NCBI RefSeq assembly: GCF_029937855.1 | Contig: NZ_JAPYPC010000011.1 | Span: 1 to 64,000 of the forward strand | From: Christiangramia sp. | Lineage (GTDB): Bacteria > Bacteroidota > Bacteroidia > Flavobacteriales > Flavobacteriaceae | Reading direction: 5' to 3' | Length of the DNA: 64,000 bases | Shown: one piece after another, positions 6,392 to 26,029 of the stretch | How the letters are laid out: the number at the start of each line of letters is the position of its first letter | Position numbering within the stretch: position 1 is the first letter of the stretch | Notes under the pieces: model-generated | The model's database searches: none | Seen by the model: the letters and a program-made list of their open reading frames with translations, nothing else | Told to the model about the DNA's origin: nothing | Position numbers and translations under genes: made by a program

Positions 6392-6538
6392 TAAGGGGAA
6401 AGAGATTTTTCAATAGCTCTGCTAAAACTTGAATATAATAAAAAACTTTTTCTCATTAAATTTTTTGCTATCTGCTGATAAATATTTCAGAATAAGCTAT
6501 TTGGTATAATTATTATGCGTACATAATAAAAATTTAGT

Positions 6539-6628
6539 ATGGAAGATTGTTTTATAATGATAGGAATCATAATGGCGGGAATTGGATTATTAACAATTTT
6601 TATCCTAAATAAAAAAATTGGTGATTAA
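6539..6628 (+). CDS. Possible 29-aa single-TM small protein
   Basis: MEDCFIMIGIIMAGIGLLTIFILNKKIGD; ATG and hydrophobic core, in a gap otherwise lacking + strand ORFs. Confidence 0.35.
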   Translation: MEDCFIMIGIIMAGIGLLTIFILNKKIGD

Positions 6629-6678
6629 AAATTATTAAAATTTTTTATGAATAGTTACCATTTCGCTAGTTATTGAAA

Positions 6679-6945
6679 TTATTTAAAGATAAGATGGTGA
6701 TAATCGAGGTTGATTTTTATGTAAACTGGAATGGTCTTACCAATTAAAATAAAATCCGTGGTAGTGTGGTAAATTTTACTAAGGCGTATAACGTGATTAA
6801 CACTTATCCCATTTTGGCCCCCTTCAATTAAGCTATATGCCGCTTGTGAAATAAATAGCTTTTCCGCCACATTTTTTTGAGTCCAATTTTTAGACTGCCT
6901 AAGCTTTCTAATCCTTTTGGCTATTGGTGAGGTGGAAATTTTCAT
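6679..6945 (-). CDS. XRE-family helix-turn-helix transcriptional regulator
   Basis: IAKRIRKLRQSKNWTQKNVAEKLFISQAAYSLIEGGQNGISVNHVIRLSKIYHTTTDFIL matches HTH_3 layout. Confidence 0.85.
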   Translation of the reverse strand: MKISTSPIAKRIRKLRQSKNWTQKNVAEKLFISQAAYSLIEGGQNGISVNHVIRLSKIYHTTTDFILIGKTIPVYIKINLDYHHLIFK

Positions 6946-6998
6946 CTAGTCTTTTATTTGATGGCAGGCCGATCTGTCAAAGTACTAATAATTTATAT

Positions 6999-7067
6999 CA
7001 ACCACAATAAATATTTAATTGAATAGTAAAAAAAATGATGATTTGTGATAAGTTCCAATTGTGGTTG
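6999..7067. promoter_or_regulatory. 10-bp perfect inverted repeat CAACCACAAT ... ATTGTGGTTG upstream of the XRE gene
   Basis: Arms 6999-7008 and 7058-7067, 49-nt spacer, intergenic. Confidence 0.4.
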
Positions 7068-7202
7068 GACTTTATATGCTCTACGCTTAAATATGGAGAA
7101 AGTTAAAATTAAACGGAAAGCCAGAGGAGTAATGGTCTGTTCCGGGATTTTAATAAAGTAGCTCAAAGTTTAAATTACACACTTAATTATTCTACCAAAA
7201 CC

Positions 7203-7245
7203 TGATTATCGTCATGTTTCTTTTCGGCTACTGAAATTACTTTTG
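7203..7245 (+). promoter_or_regulatory. CTGAY-N4-GTCAT box (core 7203-7214) + 23 bp + TACTTTTG (-7, 7238-7245), hemN promoter
   Basis: cTGATTATCGTCAt then exactly 23 nt to TACTTTTG; same layout as five other promoters in the window. Confidence 0.75.
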
Positions 7246-7266
7246 AAATTGCTAAAACCTAAGAAA

Positions 7267-8631
7267 GTGAATTTAAAATTAATTGGTAAATATAATGTCC
7301 CGGGACCTCGCTATACAAGTTATCCCACCGTGCCTTATTGGGACGATGAACTATTTACACTAAAAGAATGGAAGGCTTCGATCCAGAGAAGCTTTGACGA
7401 GAGCAATTTTTCAGAAGGCATAAGTCTTTACATTCATCTTCCTTTCTGCGAAAGCCTGTGTACTTTTTGCGGCTGTAATAAAAGAATAACAAAAAACCAC
7501 CATGTAGAGGTTCCATACATCCAGTCCGTTTTAAAGGAATGGAAGATGTACTGGGATCTTTTTGAAGAAAAACCGGTGATCAAGGAATTACATCTTGGCG
7601 GGGGTACACCCACCTTTTTTTCAGCAGAAAACCTTCAATTATTGCTGGATGGAATTTTTAGTTTAGCCCGTAAACACCCCGATGCTGAATTTAGTTTTGA
7701 AGGGCATCCTAATAACACTAAAAAAGATCATCTACAAGCACTTGCTAAATTAGGTTTCAACAGGCTTAGTTATGGAGTGCAGGATTATAATCCAGTAGTG
7801 CAGAAGGCCATTCACCGTATTCAGCCTTTCAAAAACGTGAAAAAAGCAACTATAGAAGCAAGGGAAGCAGGTTTTACTTCAGTGGGGCATGATATTATTT
7901 TTGGGTTGCCGTTTCAAAAGAAGGAACATATCATCCATACCATTGAGCGAACCAGGGAATTAATGCCAGACAGGATCGCTTTTTATAGCTATGCACATGT
8001 TCCATGGATTAAAGGCAATGGCCAGCGCGGATTCAAAGAAAGCGACACTCCTTCAGCTTCCGAAAAACGTGAGCAATACGAAATAGGAAAAAAAATGCTC
8101 CTTGAAGCCGGATATGAAGAAATAGGAATGGATCATTTCGCACTGAAAACCGATAGTCTTTACCAGGCCGTGGAAAATAAAAGCCTGCACCGTAATTTTA
8201 TGGGATATACGGCCTCCAAAACACTGTCGATGATTGGCCTGGGTGTTTCAGCTATAAGTGACAGCTGGTATGGTTTTGCTCAAAATGTAAAGGGCGTGGA
8301 GGAATATCAGCACCTGGTTCAGAATAATATTTTACCTGTTTATCGCGGCCATATTTTAACTGAAGAAGATCTTATCATTAGAAAGCATATTCTCAATCTA
8401 ATGTGCAAACTGAAAACTTTTTGGTATACCCGTAATCAGTTTTTTAGGGAACTTCCTGAAGTGCTGGTCAAACTCAGGGAAATGCAGCAGGACGGACTTG
8501 TGGAAATTGATAGCAATTACCTTAAAATCACCGAAAAAGGCAGGCCATTCGTAAGAAATGTGGCCATGGCTTTTGATTTACGTCTGCAAAGAAAAAAACC
8601 CGAAGCCAGATTATTTTCTATGACTGTTTAA
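7267..8631 (+). CDS. hemN: Oxygen-independent coproporphyrinogen III oxidase (radical SAM)
   Basis: YNVPGPRYTSYPTVPYWD, CESLCTFCGCNKR radical-SAM motif. ORF track starts at TTG 7243, but that overlaps the -7 element; GTG 7267 is suggested. Confidence 0.93.
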   Translation: MNLKLIGKYNVPGPRYTSYPTVPYWDDELFTLKEWKASIQRSFDESNFSEGISLYIHLPFCESLCTFCGCNKRITKNHHVEVPYIQSVLKEWKMYWDLFEEKPVIKELHLGGGTPTFFSAENLQLLLDGIFSLARKHPDAEFSFEGHPNNTKKDHLQALAKLGFNRLSYGVQDYNPVVQKAIHRIQPFKNVKKATIEAREAGFTSVGHDIIFGLPFQKKEHIIHTIERTRELMPDRIAFYSYAHVPWIKGNGQRGFKESDTPSASEKREQYEIGKKMLLEAGYEEIGMDHFALKTDSLYQAVENKSLHRNFMGYTASKTLSMIGLGVSAISDSWYGFAQNVKGVEEYQHLVQNNILPVYRGHILTEEDLIIRKHILNLMCKLKTFWYTRNQFFRELPEVLVKLREMQQDGLVEIDSNYLKITEKGRPFVRNVAMAFDLRLQRKKPEARLFSMTV

Positions 8632-8717
8632 AGTTTATGGCTTAAAATGTTTTCAGGTATAACTAGTTGATTTTAAGCGAATTTTTAGCGGTTTTTTAAG
8701 ATGTTTCCATTATTAAA

Positions 8718-8960
8718 ATGGATATCTTAAAATTAAAAATGAAAAGTTCGGCTATTTTATTCCTCATATTAACCACCTGCGTTTTGGTTCTTGTTACCAT
8801 TTTTTCTGCACTGAATTTCCCGTTTCCTTTGATCTTTTATATGGTTTGTGCGGGGCAGTTGTTGTTGATCTGGACTGTTTATAAAGTGCTTACTGAAAAA
8901 TATACCACAGAAAAAACATTTGAAGATTATTATGAAGATCATCCTATAGACAGGGAATAG
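8718..8960 (+). CDS. Small two-TM hypothetical membrane protein
   Basis: 80 aa, two hydrophobic stretches, directly downstream of hemN. Confidence 0.6.
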   Translation: MDILKLKMKSSAILFLILTTCVLVLVTIFSALNFPFPLIFYMVCAGQLLLIWTVYKVLTEKYTTEKTFEDYYEDHPIDRE

Positions 8961-9032
8961 AAAATTAGAATGTCATAAATTTGAATGGAATGGTTTTAAT
9001 TTTCAATTTTGTACTTTCTTAATTAGCTCATA

Positions 9033-10283
9033 TTGCAGGAAAAATTCAAGAATAATCGTGATATTTTCAATTTGCTCTTCCAGGCCGCTTCGGAAGGGAT
9101 CATTGTGGTGAATTCAAAACAAATAGTCGTTGCCTCGAATCTGGCTGCCGAAGAAATGTTTGGATATGAAGAGGGGGAACTCATAGATCGGCATCTGGAC
9201 GTGCTTATCCCTAAAGAATATCACCACAGTCACCATCGTCATTTCAATAATTTTATAGATAAATCGGAAAAAAGGCAGATGGGCCATGGTAGGGACCTGC
9301 ACGGCGTAAAAAAAGACGGTACCCTTTTTCCCGTTGAAGCCGGATTGAATCCTTTTAAAATGGAGGGGGAAGAATATGTCATGTCCCTGGTGATAGACAT
9401 TAGCGTGAGAAAAGAAACCCAGCGGCAAATACAGGAACTAAATGCTCAGCTTGAAAACAAGATCAAGGTAAGGACCAGCGAATTGAGTGAAAGTGTAAAG
9501 AAACTTCAAAAGGTAAATGTAGATCTCGAAGAGGAAATAGCTCGGAGAAAAGAAGCCGAAAAAAAGATCAAGGATGCGCTGCAAAAGGAAAAGGAATTGA
9601 ATGAACTAAAAACAAAATTTCTTTCGCTGGTTTCTCATGAATTCAAAACTCCCTTAAGTGGTATTTTAACCTCTGCAATGCTCACTGAAAAATATACCAA
9701 AGAAGAGCAGCAGCAAAAAAGGGAGAAGCACCTCGTGACCATCAGGAATAAGGTGCATTACCTCAATAATATCCTTAACGATTTTCTTTCTATCGAAAGA
9801 CTGGACACAGGAAAAGGCCAGTACAAATATACCAGTTTCAGTCTCAAGCGGCTTATCAATGAAGTGATCTACAACGCCAATATCACTTTGAAAGATGGCC
9901 AGGAAATTATTTATCCCAGGGACATTGAAGATATTACGCTATTTCAGGATGAAAAGATACTGGAGCTTATCCTGTCCAATCTCTTGGGAAATGCGGTAAA
10001 ATATTCTCCGGAAAATACCACTATCAAACTGGTGATAGCTTTCAGGGAAAAGAATATAATTTTTACTATTGAAGATCAGGGTCGGGGAATACCGGAAAAA
10101 GATCAGAAACATATTTTTGAACGTTATTTCAGGGCAGAAAACGCACTTCTTGATCAGGGAACTGGTATTGGACTTAATATTGCGAAGGCCCACCTTGAAA
10201 ATCTTGGTGGAAACATCAGTTTTGAAAGTGAAGAAGAAAAAGGAACCAAATTTAGAGTGGAACTGCCGGTTAATCAATCCTGA
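9033..10283 (+). CDS. PAS-domain sensor histidine kinase, FixL-like
   Basis: N-terminal PAS with IPKEYHHSHHRHFNNF...MGHGRDLHGVKKDGTLFPVEAGL; SLVSHEFKTPLSGIL H-box; GTGIGLNIAK G-box. No TM segment seen. TTG start. Confidence 0.9.
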   Translation: MQEKFKNNRDIFNLLFQAASEGIIVVNSKQIVVASNLAAEEMFGYEEGELIDRHLDVLIPKEYHHSHHRHFNNFIDKSEKRQMGHGRDLHGVKKDGTLFPVEAGLNPFKMEGEEYVMSLVIDISVRKETQRQIQELNAQLENKIKVRTSELSESVKKLQKVNVDLEEEIARRKEAEKKIKDALQKEKELNELKTKFLSLVSHEFKTPLSGILTSAMLTEKYTKEEQQQKREKHLVTIRNKVHYLNNILNDFLSIERLDTGKGQYKYTSFSLKRLINEVIYNANITLKDGQEIIYPRDIEDITLFQDEKILELILSNLLGNAVKYSPENTTIKLVIAFREKNIIFTIEDQGRGIPEKDQKHIFERYFRAENALLDQGTGIGLNIAKAHLENLGGNISFESEEEKGTKFRVELPVNQS

Positions 10284-10295
10284 TAAATTGAAATT

Positions 10296-11339
10296 ATGAA
10301 GAACATACTACTTATTGAAGACGATATAACCGTAAGGGAAAATACAGCCGAATTACTGGAATTATCAGATTATGAAGTGGCAACTGCGGCTAATGGAAGA
10401 CAGGGAATCGATAAAGCCAGGGCTTCTCATCCAGATATTATCGTGTGCGATGTCATGATGCCGGAAGTTGATGGCTATGGAGTTCTGGAGGCTTTGAGCA
10501 ACGATCCTGAAACCGCCAATATCCCATTTATTTTTCTTTCAGCGCGGACTGAACATAAGGATATTCGTAAAGGAATGGATCTTGGTGCCGATGATTACCT
10601 CACCAAACCTTTTGATGAAGAAGATCTTTTAAGTGCGATTGAAAGTCGACTGGCAAAAGTCGCGATCCTTAAATCTTATCAAAAAATCGATCAGCCCAAA
10701 ACAGATCAGGGAACCCTCAAAGATCTCGATGATCTTCGTGAAATGTTCAAGGAATATAGGTTGGAAGATTTCAGGAAAGGAGAGGTCATTTATGAAAAAG
10801 GCAAACACTCAAATTTCTTTTACCTGGTAAAACGTGGGGTGGTGAAGGCACACAGAATGGATAACCAGGGAAAGGAATTGATCACGGAACTCTATAAAGC
10901 TGGGGATTTCTTCGGGAATCATGCAAATAATACACAATCGGCTTATGAAGATTACGCCACCGCTATGGAAGATTCACAGTTATATGTGATCTCCCGGGAG
11001 GAATTCCATAAGGTGTTGGCAAAAAATCCACGAGTTACGTTACAACTTATCGAGGTTTTGAATACGAACCTTTCAGAACTGAAACAGCAGCTTATGGATA
11101 TGGCTTATGGTTCTGTTAGGAAAAAAACTGCGAATACTATTTTGCTTTTTGCTGAAAGGATTGAAAAGCATCCACTAAAAAGTATCCGTATCTCGCGGGC
11201 AGATCTTGCAGGTGTCGCGGGGATGGCCCCGGAGAGTCTTATTAGAACCTTATCTGATTTCAAAAAAGAAGGATTGATCGAGATCGAAGGTCGAAATATC
11301 AAATTGCTGAATCCTGAAGCGCTTAAGAATATTAAGTAG
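10296..11339 (+). CDS. Response regulator with REC + cyclic-nucleotide-binding-like + Crp/Fnr HTH domains
   Basis: LLIEDD...IIVCDVMMPEVDG...LTKPFD REC; FRKGEVIYEKGKHSNFFYLVKRGVVKAHR cNMP fold; SIRISRADLAGVAGMAPESLIRTLSDFKKEGLIEIEGRNIKLLN Crp HTH. 12 nt after the kinase. Confidence 0.93.
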   Translation: MKNILLIEDDITVRENTAELLELSDYEVATAANGRQGIDKARASHPDIIVCDVMMPEVDGYGVLEALSNDPETANIPFIFLSARTEHKDIRKGMDLGADDYLTKPFDEEDLLSAIESRLAKVAILKSYQKIDQPKTDQGTLKDLDDLREMFKEYRLEDFRKGEVIYEKGKHSNFFYLVKRGVVKAHRMDNQGKELITELYKAGDFFGNHANNTQSAYEDYATAMEDSQLYVISREEFHKVLAKNPRVTLQLIEVLNTNLSELKQQLMDMAYGSVRKKTANTILLFAERIEKHPLKSIRISRADLAGVAGMAPESLIRTLSDFKKEGLIEIEGRNIKLLNPEALKNIK

Positions 11340-11367
11340 CGCAATTCATCCCTTACATTCTAATAAC

Positions 11368-11410
11368 TGATTTTTGTCATTTTTCTATAGTCACTTCTGG
11401 CGTAATTTCG
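11368..11410 (+). promoter_or_regulatory. CTGAY-N4-GTCAT box (core 11368-11379) + 23 bp + TAATTTCG, usp promoter
   Basis: cTGATTTTTGTCAt then 23 nt to TAATTTCG (11403-11410). Confidence 0.7.
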
Positions 11411-11430
11411 CTTATGTTAAATGATGAAAG

Positions 11431-12198
11431 ATGAATGTTTTAATCCTGACTGACTTTTCGGAAGTTTCAGATAATGCTGCAAAATATGCTATAGATTTTT
11501 TACAGGAAATTCCTTCGAATTTCTATTTACTGAATATTCAGGATTTTAATTTTAATAGGACAGCCAGCAATAAGCTTGAGCATCAGCTAATTGATATTTT
11601 AGAGAAGCTTCAGAAAAATGCTGAAGAACTAAAATATTATAGCAGTAATCCTGAACATCATTTCAATACCTCCCTTTCTTCAGAAAATCTTATAAAGGCT
11701 GTACGTTTGGCGATGGAAGAACGTAAAATTGATCTTATTTTTATAGGAACCGTTAGTCAGAAAACACATCAGCATCCTATCCTGGGCGACCATGCCTATG
11801 ATGTGGTTCGGAAGATAAAATGTAATATTATCGCCGTGCCAGCAGGCTGCCAATATAAAATTCCCAAAAACACGATCTTCCCGGTAGATTCATCTCTGAT
11901 TCCCGATGAAAAGATCGTACAGATCATGGAGGAAAGTTTTTATTTAAAAAAAACCAAATTTAGCCTGATGGAGATCAATGATACAAAGGTAATTGCGCGT
12001 AACCCGGAAGGCCAGGAAAAGAACGTGATCCGGTTCAAAGATCTCAACTACAATTTCCTGGAAGACATCAGGGAAAAATTTGATTTTATCTTCATAATTG
12101 GTAAAAACCTGAATATTTGTGACAGGTTTCTACATACCCGCTACGGCTTTTCAGCCAAGATGGTTATCAAAATTCCAATTTTCGTATATCATCAGTAG
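11431..12198 (+). CDS. Universal stress protein family
   Basis: MNVLILTDFSEVSDNAAKYAIDFL, LIFIGTVSQ..., DHAYDVVRKIKCNIIAVPAG. Confidence 0.85.
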   Translation: MNVLILTDFSEVSDNAAKYAIDFLQEIPSNFYLLNIQDFNFNRTASNKLEHQLIDILEKLQKNAEELKYYSSNPEHHFNTSLSSENLIKAVRLAMEERKIDLIFIGTVSQKTHQHPILGDHAYDVVRKIKCNIIAVPAGCQYKIPKNTIFPVDSSLIPDEKIVQIMEESFYLKKTKFSLMEINDTKVIARNPEGQEKNVIRFKDLNYNFLEDIREKFDFIFIIGKNLNICDRFLHTRYGFSAKMVIKIPIFVYHQ

Positions 12199-12271
12199 CA
12201 AATTAGATGAGATCCTATGAATTAAAATAGACTGCTCCATCGTTTCTACTCGCAGTTACACTTTAATTTGA

Positions 12272-12301
12272 TGTCAATGGTAGGCGAAGCCGTGGCAATT
12301 T
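12272..12301 (-). repeat. Dispersed repeat fragment (ATTGCCACGGCTTCGCCTACCATTGACA), copy 1
   Basis: Minus strand resembles the copy at 59503-59541 (ATTGC..CG.CTTCG...CAATGACA). Confidence 0.4.
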
Positions 12302-12469
12302 GCTCTCTATTAATCTTAACCTTAATATAAGCCAGTAATTATGTGAAAGGATTATCAATTGCTGTTAGTCAGGTTGTAGCAAATTCGAGACCTTTATTTT
12401 TAAAAAACGAAGATTTGCCTGCGGCGGTGTACGGGCTCGCAGTGACCGGTGTAAAGGTATTTTTTAGGA

Positions 12470-12871
12470 CTATGCTTTTGAAGAGATCCCACGGTTTTGG
12501 TAAATCCTCAGAAAGAGATGGGTAGACATTTTTCGGGCATTGTTCTTGGCCCGTTGCGCATATTCGCCTTCAAAAAGTTCATCGATGGTTTGGAACCAGA
12601 GATTTAACCAGATACCAAAGTGATATTCGGTGATACTATTCTTATGTTCAGCGTCAACTTTTACATGTGCCTGCGCCGGATTTCCCATGAATGAGCCAGT
12701 AAAGAAAAGATTGCCTTCCCAAAAATCGGTCAGTTTTTCAAGATGTGATTCCCAATTGGTGATCGTGTTATTGAAAAAATGGCCGATCTCTCCATTCTGC
12801 CTAACTTTCTTATAAAAGCTGTCCACCAGTAAAAATACATCAGCCCGGTTTTTAATATCTTTTTTGATCAT
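12470..12871 (-). CDS. Truncated haemoglobin (group III-like)
   Basis: DVFLLVDSFYKKVRQNGEIGHFFN...HLEKLTDFWEGNLFFTGSFMGNPAQAHVKVDAEHKNSITEYHFGIWLNLWFQTIDELFEG. Confidence 0.9.
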   Translation of the reverse strand: MIKKDIKNRADVFLLVDSFYKKVRQNGEIGHFFNNTITNWESHLEKLTDFWEGNLFFTGSFMGNPAQAHVKVDAEHKNSITEYHFGIWLNLWFQTIDELFEGEYAQRAKNNARKMSTHLFLRIYQNRGISSKA

Positions 12872-13149
12872 ATAAGATTTATGATAATTAAAATGGAACT
12901 TAATATAAGACTTATGATAAGCGAATTAAGAACAAATTTTGCTTTTAACTGTGCAAGGACCGAAGCATTGAACCACATACAAGCGACAACGATTATTCCA
13001 AGCTGGATCATATTTATAACATCATGCCCGTTCATTAAAATGAACATTGCCGCGATAGATCCCAAACAGCTTGAAACTAAGATTCCGGTAGTTGCGCCTG
13101 CAAAAAAATCCTGAGTGAATTCGTTTAGAGTTTTTTGATATAGTGTCAT
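12868..13149 (-). CDS. Small membrane protein co-transcribed with the truncated haemoglobin
   Basis: MTLYQKTLNEFTQDFFAGATTGILVSSCLGSIAAMFILMNG...; ATGA overlap with downstream haemoglobin. ORF track begins at 13191; 13149 fits the promoter better. Confidence 0.75.
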   Translation of the reverse strand: MTLYQKTLNEFTQDFFAGATTGILVSSCLGSIAAMFILMNGHDVINMIQLGIIVVACMWFNASVLAQLKAKFVLNSLIISLILSSILIIINLI

Positions 13150-13173
13150 GATTTCAGCTTTTAAATTATGATG

Positions 13174-13216
13174 TAAAATTACCGCCATCATAGCAGGTAA
13201 AATATGACACAGATCA
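13174..13216 (-). promoter_or_regulatory. CTGAY-N4-GTCAT box (core 13205-13216) + 23 bp + TAATTTTA, promoter of membrane protein / haemoglobin operon
   Basis: Minus strand CTGATCTGTGTCAT then 23 nt to TAATTTTA (13181-13174). Confidence 0.7.
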
Positions 13217-13242
13217 GTTTTATCTGATTTTAAATTATTGAT

Positions 13243-14523
13243 TTATACATTATTAAGCCTTTCAAACGCCTGCTGTTCCAGTTTCTCCCTATGATCTGGA
13301 TTTGCTATGGAAATAAGCGCTTCGGCTCGTTGTTTTAGATTTTTACCGAAAAGGTCTACCACGCCATATTCCGTAGCAATGTAGTGCACATGCGCGCGGG
13401 TAGTGGTTACTCCCGCGCCTTCTTTGAGGTAGGGAACGATCTTGGAAATACCTTTATTCGTGACTGAAGGCATGGCGATAATTGCCTTTCCTCCTTCTGA
13501 AAGGGAAGCCCCGCGAATAAAGTCCATCTGCCCGCCAACACCGGAATATTGGATTTTCCCAATAGTATCGGCACAGACCTGACCTGTAAGGTCGATCTCA
13601 ATGGCCGAGTTGATGGCGGTTACTTTTGGGTTTTGTCTTATTAGGGCTGTATCGTTGGTATAAGCCGCTTCCTTGAAATGTACCAGCGGATTGTCATCTA
13701 TAAAATCGTACAATTTGGGGGAACCTACTGCGAAACAGGTCACCAGCTTACCAGTTTTGATCTTTTTCTGTTGGCCGGTGATCACTTCTTTTTCTATAAG
13801 TGGTAATACCCCATCTGAGAACATTTCGGTGTGTATTCCCAGGTTTTTATGGTTGGTGAGATTATTCAGTACAACATTCGGGATACCACCAATCCCCATT
13901 TGAAGGGTGGCACCGTCTTCCACAAGACCGGCCACATGTTTTCCTATCTGCCTCTCAATTTCGGAAGGTTCCGATAAATGAGCGGCATGAATAGGCTGGT
14001 CAACTGCAATGGCCGCATGTAGCTGACTAATATGAATGATCCCGTCTCCGTGGGTTCTTGGAACCTGCGGATTGATCTGTGCAACTACTTTTTTTGCGCT
14101 TTGTATGGCGGGAAGCGTTACATCTACTGAAACACCAAGTGAACAATAACCATGTTTATCGGGCGGGGAAACCTGGATAAAAGCAAAATCCAGCGGAAGA
14201 ATATTTCTGCGAAAGAGCACGTGTATCTCGCTGAGGAAAATTGGAATATAAGCTCCATAATTAGAATTCACTGCTTTTCTCACATTACTTCCTACAAAAC
14301 AGGAGTTAGTCTTAAATGATTTATTGTAAGGTTCCTGGGTGTAAAGTGCATTTCCTTCAGTATGGATTTGAATAAGCTCCACATCCTTAAGTTCTTCATG
14401 CCTATCGCATAGTGCGTTGATAAGGGTGTTGGGGGTCATCGCTGCACCCTGTAAGAAAACCCGATGGCCAGATTTAACTTCTTTTACTGCTTCTTGAGCT
14501 GAGACGATATCTAGATTTTTCAT
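13243..14523 (-). CDS. Acetyl-CoA hydrolase/transferase family (4-hydroxybutyrate CoA-transferase-like)
   Basis: GDGIIHISQLHAA..., LQMGIGGIPNVVL, HTEMFSDGVLPLIEKEVITG, GVGGQMDFIRGASLSEGGKAIIAMPS. Confidence 0.92.
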   Translation of the reverse strand: MKNLDIVSAQEAVKEVKSGHRVFLQGAAMTPNTLINALCDRHEELKDVELIQIHTEGNALYTQEPYNKSFKTNSCFVGSNVRKAVNSNYGAYIPIFLSEIHVLFRRNILPLDFAFIQVSPPDKHGYCSLGVSVDVTLPAIQSAKKVVAQINPQVPRTHGDGIIHISQLHAAIAVDQPIHAAHLSEPSEIERQIGKHVAGLVEDGATLQMGIGGIPNVVLNNLTNHKNLGIHTEMFSDGVLPLIEKEVITGQQKKIKTGKLVTCFAVGSPKLYDFIDDNPLVHFKEAAYTNDTALIRQNPKVTAINSAIEIDLTGQVCADTIGKIQYSGVGGQMDFIRGASLSEGGKAIIAMPSVTNKGISKIVPYLKEGAGVTTTRAHVHYIATEYGVVDLFGKNLKQRAEALISIANPDHREKLEQQAFERLNNV

Positions 14524-14657
14524 TTGTGTATATTTTTAAAATGTAATTTGCCAATGATCATCTCGGTTAGGAGTGAAGTTCAGTAATGGCTAAACTCATG
14601 TTGTTTTTCGAAATTTATGTGCGGAATGCCTTATAAAATGTCGGTTTTTAATGGTTC

Positions 14658-15224: not shown

Positions 15225-15243
15225 GGTATTTGTTCTAGTTCAG

Positions 15244-15288
15244 AAAAAAGGGCGAAGAACTTAGGCTGAAAAGCCATGAACCTCGCCC
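15244..15288 (-). terminator. Intrinsic terminator after the porin gene
   Basis: Minus strand GGGCGA...GGCTTTTCAGCC...TCGCCC hairpin followed by TTTTTT. Confidence 0.7.
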
Positions 15289-15306
15289 GATTTCAGCATA
15301 TTCAAA

Positions 15307-16611: not shown

Positions 16612-16633
16612 TTTTAAAATTTTTAAGGTTGAT

Positions 16634-17218: not shown

Positions 17219-17242
17219 AATAATTGCGTTTTAAAGTCAGTA

Positions 17243-17285
17243 CAAAGTTGGGGAAAGAGCATGGCCTAAATTATGACCATCGTCA
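17243..17285 (-). promoter_or_regulatory. CTGAY-N4-GTCAT box (core 17274-17285) + 23 bp + CAACTTTG, yceI-porin promoter
   Basis: Minus strand CTGACGATGGTCAT then 23 nt to CAACTTTG. Confidence 0.7.
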
Positions 17286-17327
17286 GCTAAGTTGTTTTTA
17301 GTAATTATTCATGAACCGGACGTTTCC

Positions 17328-17370
17328 TGATATCTGTCATTTTTTAATAGGGGTTGCTTCCTAATTTTTG
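17328..17370 (+). promoter_or_regulatory. CTGAY-N4-GTCAT box (core 17328-17339) + 23 bp + AATTTTTG, ccoI promoter
   Basis: cTGATATCTGTCAt then 23 nt to AATTTTTG (17363-17370). Confidence 0.7.
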
Positions 17371-17387
17371 TATTCAAATTGAATACA

Positions 17388-19808
17388 ATGCACATTTTGA
17401 ATTGTTTCCACTGTGGAGAGGAATGCCTGGATGAAGTAATTCGCTTTTCTGAAAAGGATTTCTGCTGCACCGGCTGTAAGACCGTTTTTGAAATTCTGAA
17501 TACGAACGATCTCTCTTATTATTATGAACTGGAAAGAAACCCCGGTACCTCGCCGAAATTCAGCGAAAACAAATTCGATTTCCTGGATAATCCGGAGATC
17601 GCTGAAAAACTGCTGGAATTCGACCATAATAATATCCAGGTAATATCGCTGATGATCCCATCCATTCACTGTAGTTCCTGTATCTGGGTACTGGAAAACC
17701 TGAACAAGATCCATAAATTTGTACGCAGTTCCCAGGTAGATTTTCCGAAGAAAAGAGTCCGTATAAGTTTTGCTTCAGATAAGCTAACCTTGAAAGAACT
17801 CGTGATCATGCTCGCGCGTATTGGTTACGAACCTTCCATATCGTTGGAAAGTTATGAGCCAAAAAACTCAAATATCGACCGTAGTCTTATTTACAAACTG
17901 GGCGTGGCTGGTTTTGCTTTTGGGAATATTATGTTCCTCTCTTTCCCTGAATATTTCGAAATCAATGAGTTCTGGTTGGAAAAGTTTAAACATCTTTTCC
18001 GGTGGCTTATGTTCAGTTTTTCACTGCCTGTAGTATTCTACGCCGGAAAGGACTATTTCACCTCTGCCTGGAAAGGTTTACATGCAGGAATGCTGAATAT
18101 AGATGTTCCCATCGCGCTGGGAATTGCCGTTCTTTTCTTAAGGAGTACTGCGGAAATCGCCTTTGATCTTGGCACAGGATTTTTCGACAGTCTTAGCGGA
18201 CTCGTCTTCTTTCTTCTCCTCGGAAGGTTTTTTCAGCAGAAGACCTATTCTTTTCTTTCTTTTGAAAGGGACTATAAATCTTATTTTCCTATAGCGGTAA
18301 CCCGGCTTAATTCAGAAGAAAACCGGCAAAAAGAAGAACAGGTACAGGTTTACAAAATAAAGATAGGGGACAGGATACTCATTAGAAATGAAGAGCTTAT
18401 TCCCATGGATTGTATCCTTATAAAAGGGAAAGCACGAATAGATTATAGTTTCGTGACGGGCGAGGCTGAACCGGTAAGCAGGAAAAGCGGTGAAAAACTG
18501 TTTGCCGGTGGCCGCCAGCAGGGTGGTATTATTGAAGTGGAAGCAGTAAAACCCGTTCAGCAGAGTTATTTGACCGAACTCTGGAATAACGAGGTCTTTA
18601 GTAAAGATAAGAACAACGCTTTCCAGAATTTAACCAACCAGATCAGCCAACGTTTTACGATCGCGGTGCTTAGTATTGCAATTGTTGCTACAGTTTTCTG
18701 GATGTTTTATGATGCTTCCAGGGCCTGGAATGTATTTACCGCGGTGCTTATTATCGCCTGTCCCTGTGCCATTGCGCTTTCCGCACCATTCACCCTGGGA
18801 AATATGCTGCGTATTTTCGGTAAGCATAAATTGTATCTGAAAGAGGCTAGGGTAATCGAACAAATATCCCAGATAGATACCGTGGTATTCGATAAAACGG
18901 GCACGATTACCACAAGCAAAAAAGAAACGATTACTTACGAAGGGCTGGAGCTTAATGACGCCGAAAAGCAATTATTGACCGGCAGCCTTCGGGCATCCAA
19001 TCATCCACTTAGTCGGGCACTTTACCGTATTTTGGATAAGAACGATATCGCACTGCCTGAAAATTTTGAAGAGGTAACCGGGAAAGGACTGCTAACTTCT
19101 TCCAGTGATCTTAAACTGAAAATAGGTTCTTCGGAATTTGTAAAGCAACCGAAAGCTGCGCAAACATTGTCTGGAGGAGCTTCAAAAACTTCCGTGCATA
19201 TAAGCGCGAACGATGAATATAAAGGTTGTTTCAGTTTTCATAACGCGTACCGCAAGGGAATTTCTGAATTGTTCGCCAGCTTATCGGAAGACCGGGAGTT
19301 AATTATTCTTTCGGGGGACAATGCAGGGGAAAGGGAAAAACTGGAAAAACTACTCCCTGCAGGAACACTCATGTTTTTCGATCAGAATCCGGGAGATAAA
19401 TTGCAGTTCATAAAAGATCTTCAACAGCAGAACAGGAAAGTGATGATGATTGGAGACGGGCTAAATGACGCCGGTGCCCTGGCACAAAGTGAAGTGGGAA
19501 TTGCCATTTCTGAAGATATCAATGTCTTTTCTCCTGCTTGTGACGGAATCCTGGATGCCAGGAAATTCGGTGATATCAATAAGTTTTTCGATTTATCCTC
19601 TAAAGCGATCAAAGTGATAAAATGGAGTTTTATGCTTTCGCTTTGCTACAATCTCGTGGGGCTTGGTTTTGCGGTTACCGGTAACCTTATGCCTGTGGTG
19701 GCAGCGATCCTGATGCCGCTTAGTTCCATCAGTGTCGTATTCTTTGCCACGTTGGCTACTCAACTACTGGGTAAAAAACTCGAAAGCAATTTAAAACCGG
19801 AAAGCTGA
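17388..19808 (+). CDS. ccoI: cbb3-associated heavy-metal P-type ATPase
   Basis: N-terminal CFHCGEEC/CCTGCKTVF, CSSC motif, CPC membrane motif (ACPCAIALS), DKTGTIT, GDGLNDAGAL. ORF track TTG start 17379; ATG at 17388. Confidence 0.93.
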   Translation: MHILNCFHCGEECLDEVIRFSEKDFCCTGCKTVFEILNTNDLSYYYELERNPGTSPKFSENKFDFLDNPEIAEKLLEFDHNNIQVISLMIPSIHCSSCIWVLENLNKIHKFVRSSQVDFPKKRVRISFASDKLTLKELVIMLARIGYEPSISLESYEPKNSNIDRSLIYKLGVAGFAFGNIMFLSFPEYFEINEFWLEKFKHLFRWLMFSFSLPVVFYAGKDYFTSAWKGLHAGMLNIDVPIALGIAVLFLRSTAEIAFDLGTGFFDSLSGLVFFLLLGRFFQQKTYSFLSFERDYKSYFPIAVTRLNSEENRQKEEQVQVYKIKIGDRILIRNEELIPMDCILIKGKARIDYSFVTGEAEPVSRKSGEKLFAGGRQQGGIIEVEAVKPVQQSYLTELWNNEVFSKDKNNAFQNLTNQISQRFTIAVLSIAIVATVFWMFYDASRAWNVFTAVLIIACPCAIALSAPFTLGNMLRIFGKHKLYLKEARVIEQISQIDTVVFDKTGTITTSKKETITYEGLELNDAEKQLLTGSLRASNHPLSRALYRILDKNDIALPENFEEVTGKGLLTSSSDLKLKIGSSEFVKQPKAAQTLSGGASKTSVHISANDEYKGCFSFHNAYRKGISELFASLSEDRELIILSGDNAGEREKLEKLLPAGTLMFFDQNPGDKLQFIKDLQQQNRKVMMIGDGLNDAGALAQSEVGIAISEDINVFSPACDGILDARKFGDINKFFDLSSKAIKVIKWSFMLSLCYNLVGLGFAVTGNLMPVVAAILMPLSSISVVFFATLATQLLGKKLESNLKPES

Positions 19809-19848
19809 CCATTGTCATTTTTTAGGATGCTGCCTGGAAATACTTTTA
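19806..19848 (+). promoter_or_regulatory. CTGAY-N4-GTCAT box (core 19806-19817) + 23 bp + TACTTTTA, ccoS-NO-Q-P promoter; overlaps ccoI stop codon
   Basis: cTGACCATTGTCAt, TGA at 19806-19808 is the ccoI stop; 23 nt to TACTTTTA (19841-19848). Confidence 0.7.
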
Positions 19849-19867
19849 CAGTCGAAGAACAGGAAAG

Positions 19868-20059
19868 ATGAATATTATCTATTTGTTGCTAGCAATAAGT
19901 CTCGTAGTGGCACTGATATTCTTTGTTGCCTTTATTTTTTCAGTGAGAAAAGGTCAGTACGACGATGTTTATACACCTTCCGTTCGAATGCTTTTTGAGG
20001 ACGAGATCATTAAAAATCCCAATACAAATCAATCTGTCAAAAAAGAGAAATCTAGTTAA
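19868..20059 (+). CDS. ccoS: cbb3 oxidase assembly protein CcoS
   Basis: 63 aa, one TM then RKGQYDD(V) motif typical of CcoS; located between ccoI and ccoN. Confidence 0.9.
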   Translation: MNIIYLLLAISLVVALIFFVAFIFSVRKGQYDDVYTPSVRMLFEDEIIKNPNTNQSVKKEKSS

Positions 20060-20061
20060 TT

Positions 20062-22257
20062 ATGGAATTACAGCAGTTTTATTACGATAATAAGATCGTA
20101 AAGAAATTTATCATCGCTACGATGTTCTGGGGCATTATAGGGATGAGTGTCGGGCTACTGCTCGCTTTTTTGTTTATTTTCCCTAATCTTACCGAAGGCA
20201 TCCCATGGCTAAGTTTTGGTAGGTTGAGGCCTTTGCATACCAATGCGGTAATATTTGCCTTTGTGGGGAACGCCATTTTCGCTGGAGTTTATTATTCCAC
20301 ACAGCGTTTACTTAAAGCCAGGATGTGGAGCGATGCCTTAAGTAACATAAACTTCTGGGGCTGGCAACTCATTATTGTGGGCGCGGCGATCACCCTGCCC
20401 ATGGGTTTTACCTCTTCTAAAGAATATGCTGAGCTGGAATGGCCTTTCGATATTGCCATTGCGGTAATCTGGGTAGCTTTTGGAGCCAACCTTATCGGGA
20501 CTATGTTAAAAAGGCGGCAACGACACTTGTATGTAGCAATCTGGTTTTACCTGGCCACTTTCGTAACCGTAGCGGTGCTGCATATTGTAAATAATATTGA
20601 AATTCCCGTAAGTGCCTTTAAAAGTTATTCTTTTTATTCAGGAGTTCAGGATGCGCTTGTACAGTGGTGGTACGGGCATAATGCCGTTGCATTCTTCCTT
20701 ACCACACCATTCCTGGGATTGATGTATTATTTTGTACCAAAGGCCGCAAACCGGCCGGTATATTCCTATAGATTATCCATTATTCACTTCTGGTCGCTGA
20801 TCTTTATCTATATCTGGGCAGGTCCGCACCATTTGCTATATACTTCTTTGCCAGACTGGGCCCAGAACCTTGGAGTGGCGTTTTCTGTAATGTTGCTTTT
20901 CCCATCCTGGGGAGGAATGATCAATGGACTTTTAACATTGAGAGGTGCATGGGATAAAGTACGGGTAGATCCCGTGCTGAAATTTATGGTAGTGGCTATC
21001 ACGGGATATGGAATGGCAACTTTTGAAGGTCCAATGCTTTCGCTTAAAAATGTGAATGCTATTGCCCATTTTAGTGACTGGATCATCGCTCACGTTCATG
21101 TTGGCGCACTTGCCTGGAATGGGTTTTTAACCTTCGGAATGGTCTACTGGCTGGTACCAAGGTTATTTAAAACGAATTTATGGTCTATAAAACTAGCTAA
21201 TACTCATTTCTGGATGGGTACCCTTGGTATCATTATTTACGCGATGCCAATGTATGTTGCCGGATTTGTTCAGGCATCCATGTGGAAACAGTTCAATCCT
21301 GATGGTACTCTTACCTACGGAAATTTCCTTGAAACCGTTACCGAGATTATCCCGATGTACTGGATGCGTGCCATAGGAGGAAGCCTTTATATCCTTGGTG
21401 CCTTTGTAATGCTTTACAATATTGTTAAAACCGTTCGCCAGGGAAGCCAGGTGGAAGATGAACTTGCCGAAGCAGCCGCATTGCAACCGGTTACCAAAAA
21501 GAGGACTGCCGGGGAAGCCTATCACAGCTGGCTGGAAAGAAGACCGGTAAAACTTACCATTTTCGCCACCATAGCGATCCTTATTGGGGGAATGGTGCAG
21601 ATCATCCCTTCATTAATGGTAGATGAATATGTGCCGGTAATTTCCAGCGTAAAACCTTATACGCCGCTGGAATTGGAAGGTCGGGATATTTACATAAGGG
21701 AAGGCTGTGTTTCCTGTCACTCGCAAATGGTAAGGCCATTTAGAAGTGAAGTGGAGCGTTATGGCGAATATTCAAAGGCCGGGGAGTACCGTTATGATTA
21801 TCCTTTCCTTTGGGGAAGTAAACGTACCGGGCCCGATCTTCACAGGATTGGCCAGAAATATTCAGATAACTGGCACCTGAACCATATGTACGATCCGCAA
21901 AGTACTTCTTCCGGTTCCATTATGCCGTCCTATCCCTGGATCATTGAGGATGAGTTGGATAAATCACAGACCGAAGATAAGATGCGCGCCATGCAAATCC
22001 TGGGAGTGCCATATACCGAAGAAGAGATCGCGAATGCCCAACAGTGGATGGAAGAACAGGGAACGAGGATAGAACAGAACCTGTATTCAGATCCCGATTT
22101 CGCCGCCACATACGAGGCCGATAAGAAATATGCGACAGAGAGCGGGGAAGCATTCACTGAAATGCGTGACCGTGAGATCGTTGCTCTTATCGCTTACCTG
22201 CAACGTTTGGGCACTGATATCAAAGCCGAAGATTTAAAGCAAGTATCAACCGAATAA
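20062..22257 (+). CDS. ccoNO: cbb3 cytochrome c oxidase, fused subunits I and II (CcoN-CcoO)
   Basis: CcoN His motifs (RPLHTNAV, WWYGHNAVAFFLTTPFLGLMYYFVPK, HFSDWIIAHVHVGALAWNGF) followed in the same ORF by CcoO haem motif EGCVSCHSQMVRPF. Confidence 0.95.
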   Translation: MELQQFYYDNKIVKKFIIATMFWGIIGMSVGLLLAFLFIFPNLTEGIPWLSFGRLRPLHTNAVIFAFVGNAIFAGVYYSTQRLLKARMWSDALSNINFWGWQLIIVGAAITLPMGFTSSKEYAELEWPFDIAIAVIWVAFGANLIGTMLKRRQRHLYVAIWFYLATFVTVAVLHIVNNIEIPVSAFKSYSFYSGVQDALVQWWYGHNAVAFFLTTPFLGLMYYFVPKAANRPVYSYRLSIIHFWSLIFIYIWAGPHHLLYTSLPDWAQNLGVAFSVMLLFPSWGGMINGLLTLRGAWDKVRVDPVLKFMVVAITGYGMATFEGPMLSLKNVNAIAHFSDWIIAHVHVGALAWNGFLTFGMVYWLVPRLFKTNLWSIKLANTHFWMGTLGIIIYAMPMYVAGFVQASMWKQFNPDGTLTYGNFLETVTEIIPMYWMRAIGGSLYILGAFVMLYNIVKTVRQGSQVEDELAEAAALQPVTKKRTAGEAYHSWLERRPVKLTIFATIAILIGGMVQIIPSLMVDEYVPVISSVKPYTPLELEGRDIYIREGCVSCHSQMVRPFRSEVERYGEYSKAGEYRYDYPFLWGSKRTGPDLHRIGQKYSDNWHLNHMYDPQSTSSGSIMPSYPWIIEDELDKSQTEDKMRAMQILGVPYTEEEIANAQQWMEEQGTRIEQNLYSDPDFAATYEADKKYATESGEAFTEMRDREIVALIAYLQRLGTDIKAEDLKQVSTE

Positions 22258-22267
22258 ATTTTAAACG

Positions 22268-22471
22268 ATGTTGAAATTCGTAAAAGGACCCCTGGAAAGT
22301 ATAGAAGGTGTGGAAATATATCCGATCATTTCCCTGCTTATCTTTTTCATCTTTTTCACTGCGCTTTTCTGGTGGGTGTTTACCGCAAAAAAAGATTATA
22401 TCAATAATGTAAGCAGCATTCCGCTGGAACAGGAAGACGAAATCAATAATTCCAAAGAAGACCTGTCATGA
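22268..22471 (+). CDS. ccoQ: CcoQ/FixQ-like subunit
   Basis: 67 aa, one TM, gene order. Confidence 0.75.
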   Translation: MLKFVKGPLESIEGVEIYPIISLLIFFIFFTALFWWVFTAKKDYINNVSSIPLEQEDEINNSKEDLS

Positions 22472-23436
22472 AAAAGATATATTCAATTTTAAGGGTTTCG
22501 GGATTGATGTTGCTGGCGGTTATCATCGCTGAAAATACTCTGGAAACCGGGGGTAAAAGCAGTTTCGGAGTATACCCAATTCTATGGCTAATCCTTGGTG
22601 TAGCTTTCATATTTGCAATCGCTGCCGAAATTTCGGTAGCTGCACTGGAAAGCACTCTCTACAAAGCGCTTAAGCCGGAAATGAAAATTAAATATGACCA
22701 GGCTGCTATCGCAAAACAAGAAAAATGGAAAAACTGGTTCAAGAAATTTTACGATAAACTTCTAGATAAAAAGCCACTGGAGAAAGAAGAGGAGATCGTA
22801 TTGGATCATAATTACGATGGCATAAAGGAGCTGGATAATAATCTACCGCCATGGTGGCTGTATGGTTTTTACGCCAGTATTGTCTTCGCAGGAATTTACA
22901 TGGCCAGATACCACATATTTGACGGATCAAGTCAGCGGGAGGAATATCTGACTGAGATAACGGAAGCACGTGAGGCCGTTGAAGAATATAAAAAGAATGC
23001 CAACGGCCTTATAGATGCCAATACGGTAGAGTTGCTGACCGGGGAGGAAGATATTAATAGGGGAAAGGCCACCTTTGAAGCTAATTGTGTTGCCTGCCAT
23101 AAGATAGATGCAGGCGGAGGTATTGGCCCTAATCTCGTAGATTCTTATTGGATTTTGGGGGGTGGGATCAAGAATGTTTTCAATACAATTTCTGAAGGTG
23201 GGCGTACGGGAAAGGGTATGATTGCCTGGAAAACCGATCTCAAACCAGAGGAAATTGCTCAGGTGGCCAGTTATGTGCTAAGCCTGCACGGCAGCACTCC
23301 TGCCGATCCCAAAGAACCTGAAGGTGAGTTTTGGATTGATCCTGATGCAAGGATAGAGGAAGTAGATGTAAACAGTCCCGATTCTCTTTCCATCGAAATG
23401 GAAATGGGATATGAAGAAGATATGCTGGAGGAATAA
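22468..23436 (+). CDS. ccoP: cbb3 oxidase subunit III, cytochrome c (CcoP)
   Basis: DGIKELDNNLPPWWLYGFYASIVFAGIYMARYH; ANCVACHKIDAGGGIGPNL haem c site. Confidence 0.93.
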   Translation: MKKIYSILRVSGLMLLAVIIAENTLETGGKSSFGVYPILWLILGVAFIFAIAAEISVAALESTLYKALKPEMKIKYDQAAIAKQEKWKNWFKKFYDKLLDKKPLEKEEEIVLDHNYDGIKELDNNLPPWWLYGFYASIVFAGIYMARYHIFDGSSQREEYLTEITEAREAVEEYKKNANGLIDANTVELLTGEEDINRGKATFEANCVACHKIDAGGGIGPNLVDSYWILGGGIKNVFNTISEGGRTGKGMIAWKTDLKPEEIAQVASYVLSLHGSTPADPKEPEGEFWIDPDARIEEVDVNSPDSLSIEMEMGYEEDMLEE

Positions 23437-23438
23437 AA

Positions 23439-24866
23439 TTGCGGAAATTGGAAAAGAAAGAAGAGAAATTTAGAGATAGCATTGCTACGATGGACGAGGA
23501 AGGGAAACGTTCCTGGGTATTCCCTAAGAAACCTTCTGGGAAATATTATGAATATCGTAAATATGTGAGTTATGTTTTACTGGCCTTTCTTTTTGTTTCT
23601 CCCTTTATAAAAATCAACGGCAACCAGTTCCTGATGTTCAATGTACTGGAGCGCCGCTTCAATATCTTCGGAGCCGTCTTCTGGCCGCAGGATTTTTATC
23701 TGTTTGTGATAGCTATGTTAATAGGTGTGGTGTTCATCTTATTGTTCACCGTAGCTTTCGGAAGGATCTTCTGTGGTTGGATATGTCCCCAGACGATTTT
23801 TATGGAAATGGTCTTTAGAAGGATTGAATACTGGATTGAAGGTGACCGCGGAAAGCAGATACGGCTTGAAAAACAACCCTGGAATTCAGAGAAGATCAGG
23901 AAAAAGGTCCTAAAATGGTCAATTTTCTTCTTCATTTCTTTGCTCATCGCCAATGTCTTCCTGGCCTATCTTATAGGAAGTGACCGCCTGCTGCTTTATA
24001 TCTATGAAGGTCCGGCGGTACATTTTAGCACATTGATCTCTTTACTCATCTTTACCGGTGTGTTCTATTTTGTTTTCGCCTGGTTCCGCGAGCAGGTTTG
24101 CGTGATCGCCTGTCCTTATGGTCGTTTGCAGGGAGTGTTGCTGGACAACAAATCTATCGTGGTGGCTTACGATCATAAACGCGGTGAAAAGGAAAAGGGA
24201 AGGGCGAAATTTAAAAAAAATGAAGACCGTTCAGCAACCGGAAAGGGTGATTGTATTGATTGTTTTCAATGTGTGCAGGTTTGTCCTACCGGAATAGACA
24301 TCCGCAACGGTACCCAGCTGGAATGTATCAATTGTACTGCATGTATCGATGCCTGCAACCAGATGATGGAGGCGGTGGATCTTCCACAAGGCCTTATCAG
24401 GTACGCCAGTGAAGAGAATATTGAAAAGAAGGCGAAATTCAAATTTACTCCACGTCTCAAAGGATATACGGCAGTGTTATTCATATTAGTTTCTATTTTA
24501 ACAGGTATGTTGTTTCTTAGAAGTGATGTGGAAGCCAATATTCTAAGGCTTCCCGGTCAGTTATACGAACACAAGGAAGAGAATATCATCAGCAATGTTT
24601 ATACCTATAAACTTATCAATAAAACCAACAATGCGTATGGGAATATCCGTTTTGAACTGGCATCCCATAAAGGAACTATTGAAACGGTAAAACAGCAAAA
24701 TATTGAGGTCTCCGGCAACGCACTGGCGGAAGGAACCTTATTCATCGAAATTAACAGGTCGGCCCTGGAAGATGATAAAGATGTGGTAGAGATCGAAGTT
24801 TATAATAACGATCAACTTATTGAAACCACTTCTACCATTTTTATGGGACCGAGAAATTATAAATAA
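23439..24866 (+). CDS. ccoG: cbb3 assembly ferredoxin-like protein CcoG
   Basis: FGRIFCGWICPQTIFMEMVFRRIEYWIEGDR; CIDCFQCVQVCPTGIDIRNGTQLECINCTACIDACN. Confidence 0.95.
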   Translation: MRKLEKKEEKFRDSIATMDEEGKRSWVFPKKPSGKYYEYRKYVSYVLLAFLFVSPFIKINGNQFLMFNVLERRFNIFGAVFWPQDFYLFVIAMLIGVVFILLFTVAFGRIFCGWICPQTIFMEMVFRRIEYWIEGDRGKQIRLEKQPWNSEKIRKKVLKWSIFFFISLLIANVFLAYLIGSDRLLLYIYEGPAVHFSTLISLLIFTGVFYFVFAWFREQVCVIACPYGRLQGVLLDNKSIVVAYDHKRGEKEKGRAKFKKNEDRSATGKGDCIDCFQCVQVCPTGIDIRNGTQLECINCTACIDACNQMMEAVDLPQGLIRYASEENIEKKAKFKFTPRLKGYTAVLFILVSILTGMLFLRSDVEANILRLPGQLYEHKEENIISNVYTYKLINKTNNAYGNIRFELASHKGTIETVKQQNIEVSGNALAEGTLFIEINRSALEDDKDVVEIEVYNNDQLIETTSTIFMGPRNYK

Positions 24867-24871
24867 GAATT

Positions 24872-25327
24872 ATGAAAATCAAGATACATTGGGGGACAGG
24901 ACTGGCGATTGGAATGGTTATTTTTATATCATTCATCATGTATTTCGTTATAACCATGCTGAGCAGTACAGATTATGACCATGATCTGGTGGTAGAAGAT
25001 TATTACAAAGCCGAGCTGCATTATCAGGAAGATATAGATGCACAGCGGAACCTTCTTGCTTTAAGTAGGGGGGTGGATGTCTATAAAAAGGATGGCAGAT
25101 TGATGCTAAACCTGCCTGAAGAAATGGAATTATCAAAAATGAAAGGTTCTGTAACGCTGTACAGGCCCTCTAACAAAAAACTGGATTTCGATATTCCTTT
25201 GCAGGATCTTGTGGAAAAGACTATAGAAATTTCATCTAAAAAGCTTATTCCGGGTCGCTGGAACGTGATCGTAAGCTGGGTTTATGAAGGTGAGGAGTAC
25301 CTTTTCAAAAAAGAAATTCTTTACTAA
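24872..25327 (+). CDS. ccoH: FixH/CcoH family protein
   Basis: KIHWGTGLAIGMVIFISFIMYFV...VVEDYYKAELHYQEDIDAQRN typical FixH layout. Confidence 0.88.
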   Translation: MKIKIHWGTGLAIGMVIFISFIMYFVITMLSSTDYDHDLVVEDYYKAELHYQEDIDAQRNLLALSRGVDVYKKDGRLMLNLPEEMELSKMKGSVTLYRPSNKKLDFDIPLQDLVEKTIEISSKKLIPGRWNVIVSWVYEGEEYLFKKEILY

Positions 25328-26029
25328 ATGCTACTTTCAGCACTCATATTTGGATTATTGGGGAGTTTCCATTGCATGGGGATGTGCGGCCCTATTGCCT
25401 TTATGCTCCCCGTCGACCGGAAGAATATGCTGAAACGTTTTATTCAGATATTGCTTTATCATCTTGGTCGTATTGCGTCTTATGCAGTCATTGGCCTGGC
25501 TTTTGGTGTTGTGGGAAAAAGTCTTTCGCTGTTCGGGCTTCAGCAACAGCTTTCCATTATCATGGGAGTTTTAATGCTGACTATCATATTGATCCCGAAA
25601 TTTAGCCAATCTAAGAACAGGCTTTCGCAAAAAAGTTTTCGGTTGATTTCCACATTAAAGAATTCGCTTGGGAAAGAATTGAAAAAGAAACGTCCCGACA
25701 CTTTTTTCACAGTAGGTTTGCTAAATGGATTTCTTCCCTGTGGACTCGTGTATATGGCGGTTTTTGGTGCAGTTGCCATGGGGAATGCATTCCAGGGAAG
25801 TATTTATATGATTCTGTTTGGTGTCGGCACCATGCCATTGATGACCACCGCAATCTGGATTGGGAATTTCATATCAGTAAAATTTCGACAAAGAATACGT
25901 AAAGCAATACCTGTCTTTGTAGGGATCATAGCCATTCTTTTTATTGTAAGAGGACTAGGTTTAGAAATTCCTTATTTATCTCCTTCTCATCCTACAGAAA
26001 AAGTAAGTACGAATTACAACTGTCATTGA
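25328..26029 (+). CDS. Sulfite exporter TauE/SafE family (CcoH-like heme/copper maturation neighbor)
   Basis: LLGSFHCMGMCGPIAFMLP, GFLPCGLVYMAVFGAVAMG. Confidence 0.9.
   Translation: MLLSALIFGLLGSFHCMGMCGPIAFMLPVDRKNMLKRFIQILLYHLGRIASYAVIGLAFGVVGKSLSLFGLQQQLSIIMGVLMLTIILIPKFSQSKNRLSQKSFRLISTLKNSLGKELKKKRPDTFFTVGLLNGFLPCGLVYMAVFGAVAMGNAFQGSIYMILFGVGTMPLMTTAIWIGNFISVKFRQRIRKAIPVFVGIIAILFIVRGLGLEIPYLSPSHPTEKVSTNYNCH

Follow-up and report, generated by a model that had tools for sequence, protein, structure and literature searches.

A FixL-type kinase and a REC-Crp regulator as a likely replacement for Fe-S FNR at the cbb3 oxidase promoters of Christiangramia

Which protein reads a promoter box that recurs ahead of hemN and the cbb3 oxidase genes in a Christiangramia genome, and how might oxygen reach that protein? 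The DNA considered here (the window) comprises 64,000 nucleotides, positions 1 to 64,000 of contig NZ_JAPYPC010000011.1 (assembly GCF_029937855.1). It carries a sensor histidine kinase gene (9033..10283, forward strand) followed by a gene for a REC-cNMP-HTH_Crp response regulator (10296..11339, forward strand), here called REC-Crp. We consider it likely, with a probability of roughly 0.7, that REC-Crp is an FNR-type activator which receives phosphate from a FixL-type haem kinase and has replaced Fe-S FNR at the promoters concerned. About 200 relatives were compared, and the outcome indicates that the pair can take over from Fe-S FNR in switching on the high-affinity oxidase.

The original prediction described a PAS kinase with a REC-Crp fusion 12 nt further on, and the open reading frames, the gap, and the Pfam domains all bear this out. 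The last base of the kinase stop codon is 10283, and the ATG of the regulator starts at 10296; in the present reading, the kinase frame opens with a TTG start. The kinase consists of a FixL-type PAS domain (approximately residues 12-127), a coiled linker, HisKA (motif SLVSHEFKTPL), and HATPase_c, with Pfam scores well over the cut-offs (PAS_9 49, HisKA 48, and HATPase_c 100 bits). The same is true of the 347-residue regulator (Response_reg 104, cNMP_binding 67, and HTH_Crp_2 53 bits), and no dedicated model in the curated NCBIfam set scored REC-Crp over its cut-off.

Of 296 genomes from the class, 162 yielded REC-Crp homologues at E <= 1e-30, the weakest of these perhaps being partial matches; of 201 family genomes, 106 did so at E <= 1e-60. 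A kinase gene adjoined REC-Crp in 30 of 30 loci and then in 49 of 51, and cbb3 or hemN genes lay within about 10 kb of it in 22 of the 51. A scan of a genome collection gave at least 11 full-length named loci, the named carriers among the matches listed including Aquimarina, Jiulongibacter, Arcticibacter, Chitinophaga, and Sphingobacterium. In a genome of the same genus as ours (G332), the kinase, REC-Crp, usp, ccoI, ccoNO, ccoP, ccoG, and ccoH genes are contiguous and FNR is absent. With homologues in about half of the genomes sampled from class and family, the REC-Crp architecture is widespread, and the pair is a common, established two-gene system of Bacteroidota rather than a local oddity. 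Two further proteins were seen in passing. One genome has a second open reading frame after REC-Crp (L025:2552-3280) that matches the Crp half only, at 32% identity. The other, a hybrid kinase of 1979 residues, is encoded within the window at positions 452-6391 (forward strand); it combines many HAMP-like repeats with a kinase core and, toward the C terminus, several receiver domains.

The solved structures nearest to the kinase PAS domain by phmmer are the haem domains of FixL (2e-15) and DosP (9e-14), and a Foldseek search with the predicted PAS fold also gave FixL as its top matches. In alignments, His67 (codon 9231..9233, forward strand; in HHSHHRH, residues 64-70) is equivalent to the haem ligand His200 of BjFixL, and Arg87 (codon 9291..9293, forward strand; in MGHGRDL) is equivalent to the distal Arg220. 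Both residues are nearly invariant in A2, and among family kinases the histidine was kept in 40/40 and the arginine in 34/40. Alignment of 23 PAS_9-type domains of the window's genome with FixL served as a control. Histidine and arginine occurred together only in the pair's kinase, and the histidine in none of the 22 others. Given the nearness to FixL and DosP in sequence and fold, the conserved residues, and the control domains that lack the histidine, the kinase PAS domain likely binds haem, through which it would probably detect oxygen. Outside the family, the histidine was retained but the Arg220 equivalent was often M or I, so haem chemistry may differ there.

That variable position leaves room for a kinase that responds to some other cue in place of haem-based oxygen sensing, for instance a bound metabolite, NO, or redox state, with REC-Crp still reading the box. 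Haem binding is predicted here from sequence and fold, and haem PAS domains can respond to NO or CO too. Still, such a sensor would have to be reconciled with nearest relatives that are haem PAS domains, with a histidine kept throughout the family kinases and missing from every other aligned PAS_9 domain, and with a pair that stands in for a four-cysteine FNR at the same promoters (see below). We therefore regard a non-haem signal as unlikely and favor haem-based oxygen sensing.

The presumed output of the kinase is a set of promoters that share the extended box M-TGAY-N4-RTCA-K, in which A or C takes the flanking position that is T in FNR sites of E. coli. The 3.9 Mb genome holds 68 copies of this box, against 22 occurrences of a reversed-pattern control, and 8 of the 68 fall within 6185-19818 of the window. 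To describe its setting, we scored the Bacteroidota -7 element TAnnTTTG at >= 5/6 matches and measured its offset from the first base of the box. Upstream of hemN (oxygen-independent coproporphyrinogen III oxidase; 7243..8631, forward strand; TIGR00538 421 bits, cut-off 325), a candidate target, the box CTGATTATCGTCAT (7202..7215, forward strand) is followed by a perfect -7 element, TACTTTTG, at offset 35. Immediately downstream of the pair, CTGATTTTTGTCAT (11367..11380, forward strand) precedes a universal stress protein (Usp) gene with the -7-like TAATTTCG (5/6 matches) at offset 35. This candidate target (11431..12198, forward strand) is often found beside the pair.

The remaining candidate targets are the cbb3 genes, which start about 6 kb downstream of the pair (about 17379..26029, forward strand) and run as ccoI, a small open reading frame, a ccoNO fusion, ccoP, ccoG, ccoH, and a sulfite-exporter-like gene. 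Apart from the P-type ATPase, the subunits were named by reading their translations and from conserved order. Two boxes lie ahead of ccoI, which encodes the P-type ATPase: ATGACCATCGTCAG (17273..17286, forward strand), between a YceI-like gene and ccoI and without a -7 element at offset 35, and CTGATATCTGTCAT (17327..17340, forward strand), with the -7-like TAATTTTT at offset 34. Another, CTGACCATTGTCAT (19805..19818, forward strand), precedes the small ccoS-like frame and ccoN, with the -7-like TACTTTTA (5/6) at offset 35. The proposal that hemN and cbb3 genes with box promoters lie close to the pair is thus upheld by the TIGR00538 match, the position of the cluster (hemN being upstream of the pair), and the box counts.

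Other boxes and genes of this region are recorded here as observations. On the reverse strand, CTGATCTGTGTCAT (13204..13217) lies upstream of the orf107/globin-like pair, with the -7-like TAATTTTA (5/6) at offset 35. This small membrane-like frame and globin-like frame (12470-13191, reverse strand) have that promoter in common and may form a further target operon; the globin call was made by eye, and Pfam gave no match. An outer-membrane porin-like gene lies between two YceI-like genes (14658-17218, reverse strand), and the two boxes between the second of these and ccoI make divergent control possible. A perfect intergenic box at 6557-6570 has no clear gene adjoining it.

Across the loci near REC-Crp, the box preceded ccoNO in 15/15 cbb3 loci, Usp genes in 10/13, and kinase-type genes in 22/54, compared with 0.36 to 1.5 boxes expected per upstream set from mononucleotide shuffles. 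In these loci, the genes further inside the cluster (ccoG, ccoH, and the sulfite-exporter gene) had no box upstream, and the window's own kinase promoter has no perfect box. As a guide to a genome-wide regulon the box was rejected, because the 15 sampled sites outside the window were almost all within open reading frames and so look like chance.

The regulator had originally been tied to this box by proximity, and this argument proved insufficient. In a comparison able to refute the link, we examined the ccoN promoters of 40 family genomes with REC-Crp and 40 without it, and found the box in 40/40 and 39/40, respectively. Proximity alone was therefore rejected as grounds for the link, since the same box is present where REC-Crp is missing and a different Crp/Fnr protein would read it there. 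Neither the canonical FNR site TTGAY-N4-RTCAA nor the CRP site TGTGA-N6-TCACA occurred at ccoN in any of the 80 promoters. In the 40 genomes without REC-Crp, the Crp-type match was a stand-alone protein lacking a REC domain, encoded about 3 kb from ccoN in most and as far as 8 kb away in a few. Four cysteines were invariant in 29/30 aligned stand-alone proteins, as expected for Fe-S FNR, and their recognition helix (e.g., GTATESAIRVLSQFKKEGLI) is almost identical to that of REC-Crp.

We then sought FNR in the same 201 family genomes, 172 with cbb3 genes and 29 without. Among the 172, both regulators were present in 65, only REC-Crp in 38, only FNR in 69, and neither in 0. By contrast, neither regulator was present in 22 of the 29 genomes without cbb3 (Fisher p 1.4e-10, a value that overstates independence because the test treats related genomes as independent, though the genomes span many genera). 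The window's genome belongs to the REC-Crp-only group, having no FNR orthologue, and the box was found in 22/22 ccoN promoters fetched from this group.

Even so, another Crp/Fnr protein of the window's genome might read the box, with REC-Crp serving a different site and regulon and its position near cbb3 being incidental or a matter of co-regulation. The box does persist in nearly all genomes without REC-Crp, and the window's genome has other Crp-type proteins, one of which (on C76) has a helix, ITPESLSR, whose residues are spaced E-x-x-S-R as in E. coli FNR. However, the HTH of this protein was barely detected (E 0.007), and the sequence preferred by E. coli FNR, which has Ser at this helix position, is TTGAT, whereas the box has A or C in place of the outer T. 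With FNR absent, the helices that remain (TSRVVISR, TRAVVNR, and TPESLSR) are unlike that of REC-Crp, which is the only Crp/Fnr protein found in this genome with a matching recognition helix. Moreover, genome G447 keeps the box even though its only detected cNMP-fold proteins are REC-Crp and two with unlike helices, one of the TSRVVISR and one of the ITPEFMSK type, and REC-Crp and FNR together cover every sampled cbb3 genome. We consider a different reader improbable; the dissimilar helices, the box in G447, and the complementarity with FNR point to REC-Crp as the protein that reads the box in the window's genome.

The regulator itself resembles FNR in its DNA-binding half. Its recognition helix is GMAPESLIRTLSDFKKEGLI; it reads GMAPESLIR where REC-Crp proteins have GTATETxIR and the stand-alone FNRs GTATESAIR. 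Foldseek matched it to CRP/FNR folds and both PF00027 and PF13545 scored over cut-off, placing it in the Crp/Fnr superfamily. We rejected a reading of the regulator as an Fe-S FNR because the window protein has no cysteine at any of the four alignment positions that carry one in 29/30 FNR proteins. Compared with the stand-alone FNRs encoded near ccoI and ccoN in related Flavobacteriaceae-type genomes, REC-Crp shares promoters, box, spacing, and a near-identical helix but differs in the missing cysteines, the N-terminal REC domain, and the partner kinase. With E. coli FNR, it shares the Crp fold, a helix with matching Glu and Arg, and a palindrome with an N4 spacer; it departs from that protein in having Ile for Ser212, no cluster cysteines, and a box of MTGAY rather than TTGAT. 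The cNMP-binding fold and HTH are also those of E. coli CRP, but, by reading of the sequence, the stretch that in CRP holds the cAMP contacts E72 and R82 is not conserved (FFGNHANNTQSAYEDYATA), nor does ccoN carry the CRP site.

In its receiver half, the phospho-Asp that had been placed in VCDVMMPEVDG was confirmed as D52. This residue is invariant in 18 homologues together with D9, T103, and K104, so that the phospho-Asp, acidic pair, Thr/Ser, and Lys are all present. From the operon layout, the 49/51 adjacency, and these conserved residues, we infer that D52 takes phosphate from the neighbouring kinase.

The direction of the response is suggested by promoter geometry. The -7 element stood at exactly offset 35 in 39/39 ccoN promoters of genomes without REC-Crp and at 40/42 box sites scored in genomes with it; the centre of the box lies 29.5 bp before the -7 element begins. 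Judged from these promoters, the spacing is of the class-II activator type and is the same with either regulator. Phosphorylation could instead switch the regulator off, or REC-Crp could act as a repressor at some sites, as the sequence itself does not tell whether the response is positive or negative. Yet activators near -41 typically show such a fixed distance between box and -7 element, and the distance is unchanged where no reader other than FNR comes into question, which leaves this the least probable of the alternatives. We therefore retain activation by the phosphorylated regulator as the preferred reading.

Taken this way, a fall in oxygen would strip the haem PAS domain of its ligand and, by resemblance to FixL, lead the kinase to autophosphorylate and pass phosphate to D52 of the adjacent REC-Crp. 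The phosphorylated regulator, presumably a Crp-type dimer, would bind the palindromic box and activate ccoI, ccoS-ccoN, hemN, and usp from a class-II position, and probably the globin pair. Production of cbb3 and haem synthesis would then rise under low oxygen. REC-Crp would thereby do the job performed in related genomes by stand-alone Fe-S FNR, with the same box and spacing. We lean, with less assurance than for the mechanism itself, toward a broader reading in which the 38 of 172 cbb3 genomes with REC-Crp only control cbb3 through haem kinase, phosphate, and an FNR-type protein, leaving promoters and DNA code unchanged and making REC-Crp a phosphorylation-controlled FNR.

The core of the original prediction, direct control by a FixL-like kinase over a Crp/Fnr-class activator of hemN and cbb3, thus gains strength from the conserved haem residues, the absent FNR orthologue, the dissimilar helices of the other Crp proteins, and the joint coverage of cbb3 genomes. 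Besides its proximity argument, what gave way was the comparison with a shortened rhizobial cascade. Like FixL-FixJ-FixK, the pair has a FixL-type haem PAS domain with a HisKA/HATPase kinase and a Crp/Fnr-class output that would activate cbb3 (fixNOQP in rhizobia) and hemN. However, no separate FixJ (REC with a LuxR-type HTH) was found at the window's locus, where receiver and Crp-class parts form a single protein, which removes one transcription step, and the box lacks the outer T of TTGAT. Replacement of Fe-S FNR is the closer description, given the shared promoters, the near-identical helix, and the A/C box flank. For Rhizobium leguminosarum, PMC7888657 describes hFixL-FxkR-FixK, in which a FixL-type sensor controls the FixK activator through another regulator; those regulators are distinct proteins acting in series, unlike the single fusion protein here.

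Provisionally, the pairing of a FixL-type kinase with REC-Crp as a response regulator in place of FNR is a new arrangement. Our searches covered the open-access literature, with most subscription journals outside it, and found nothing on the pair under REC-CRP regulators, flavobacterial FixL, or Bacteroidetes FNR regulons. Within the same literature, we found no description of low-oxygen regulation of cbb3 in Bacteroidota or of a phosphorylation-controlled FNR as a response-regulator output class. A Flavobacteriales Crp/Fnr homologue with predicted carbon sensing was studied in PMC8510549, and a keyword search of that paper gave no mention of the REC-Crp/kinase system. If our reading is true, close relatives use one promoter code with two interchangeable oxygen sensors of unrelated chemistry, an Fe-S cluster and a haem kinase; the choice by a lineage of one sensor, both, or a swap becomes testable; and Bacteroidota have a compact two-protein oxygen switch.

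Some genomes hold further combinations of Crp-type proteins. In G343, G417, G392, and others, the genes for REC-Crp and a four-cysteine FNR lie a few kb apart, with cbb3 similarly close. A third Crp group of ~200 aa, with the similar helix LRVETVIR, lies 7.5-9 kb from ccoN in three genomes (L351-L354, L357-L360). This group was not found in the window's genome but is present in some genomes with REC-Crp and no FNR, and its members could read the box in their own genomes too.
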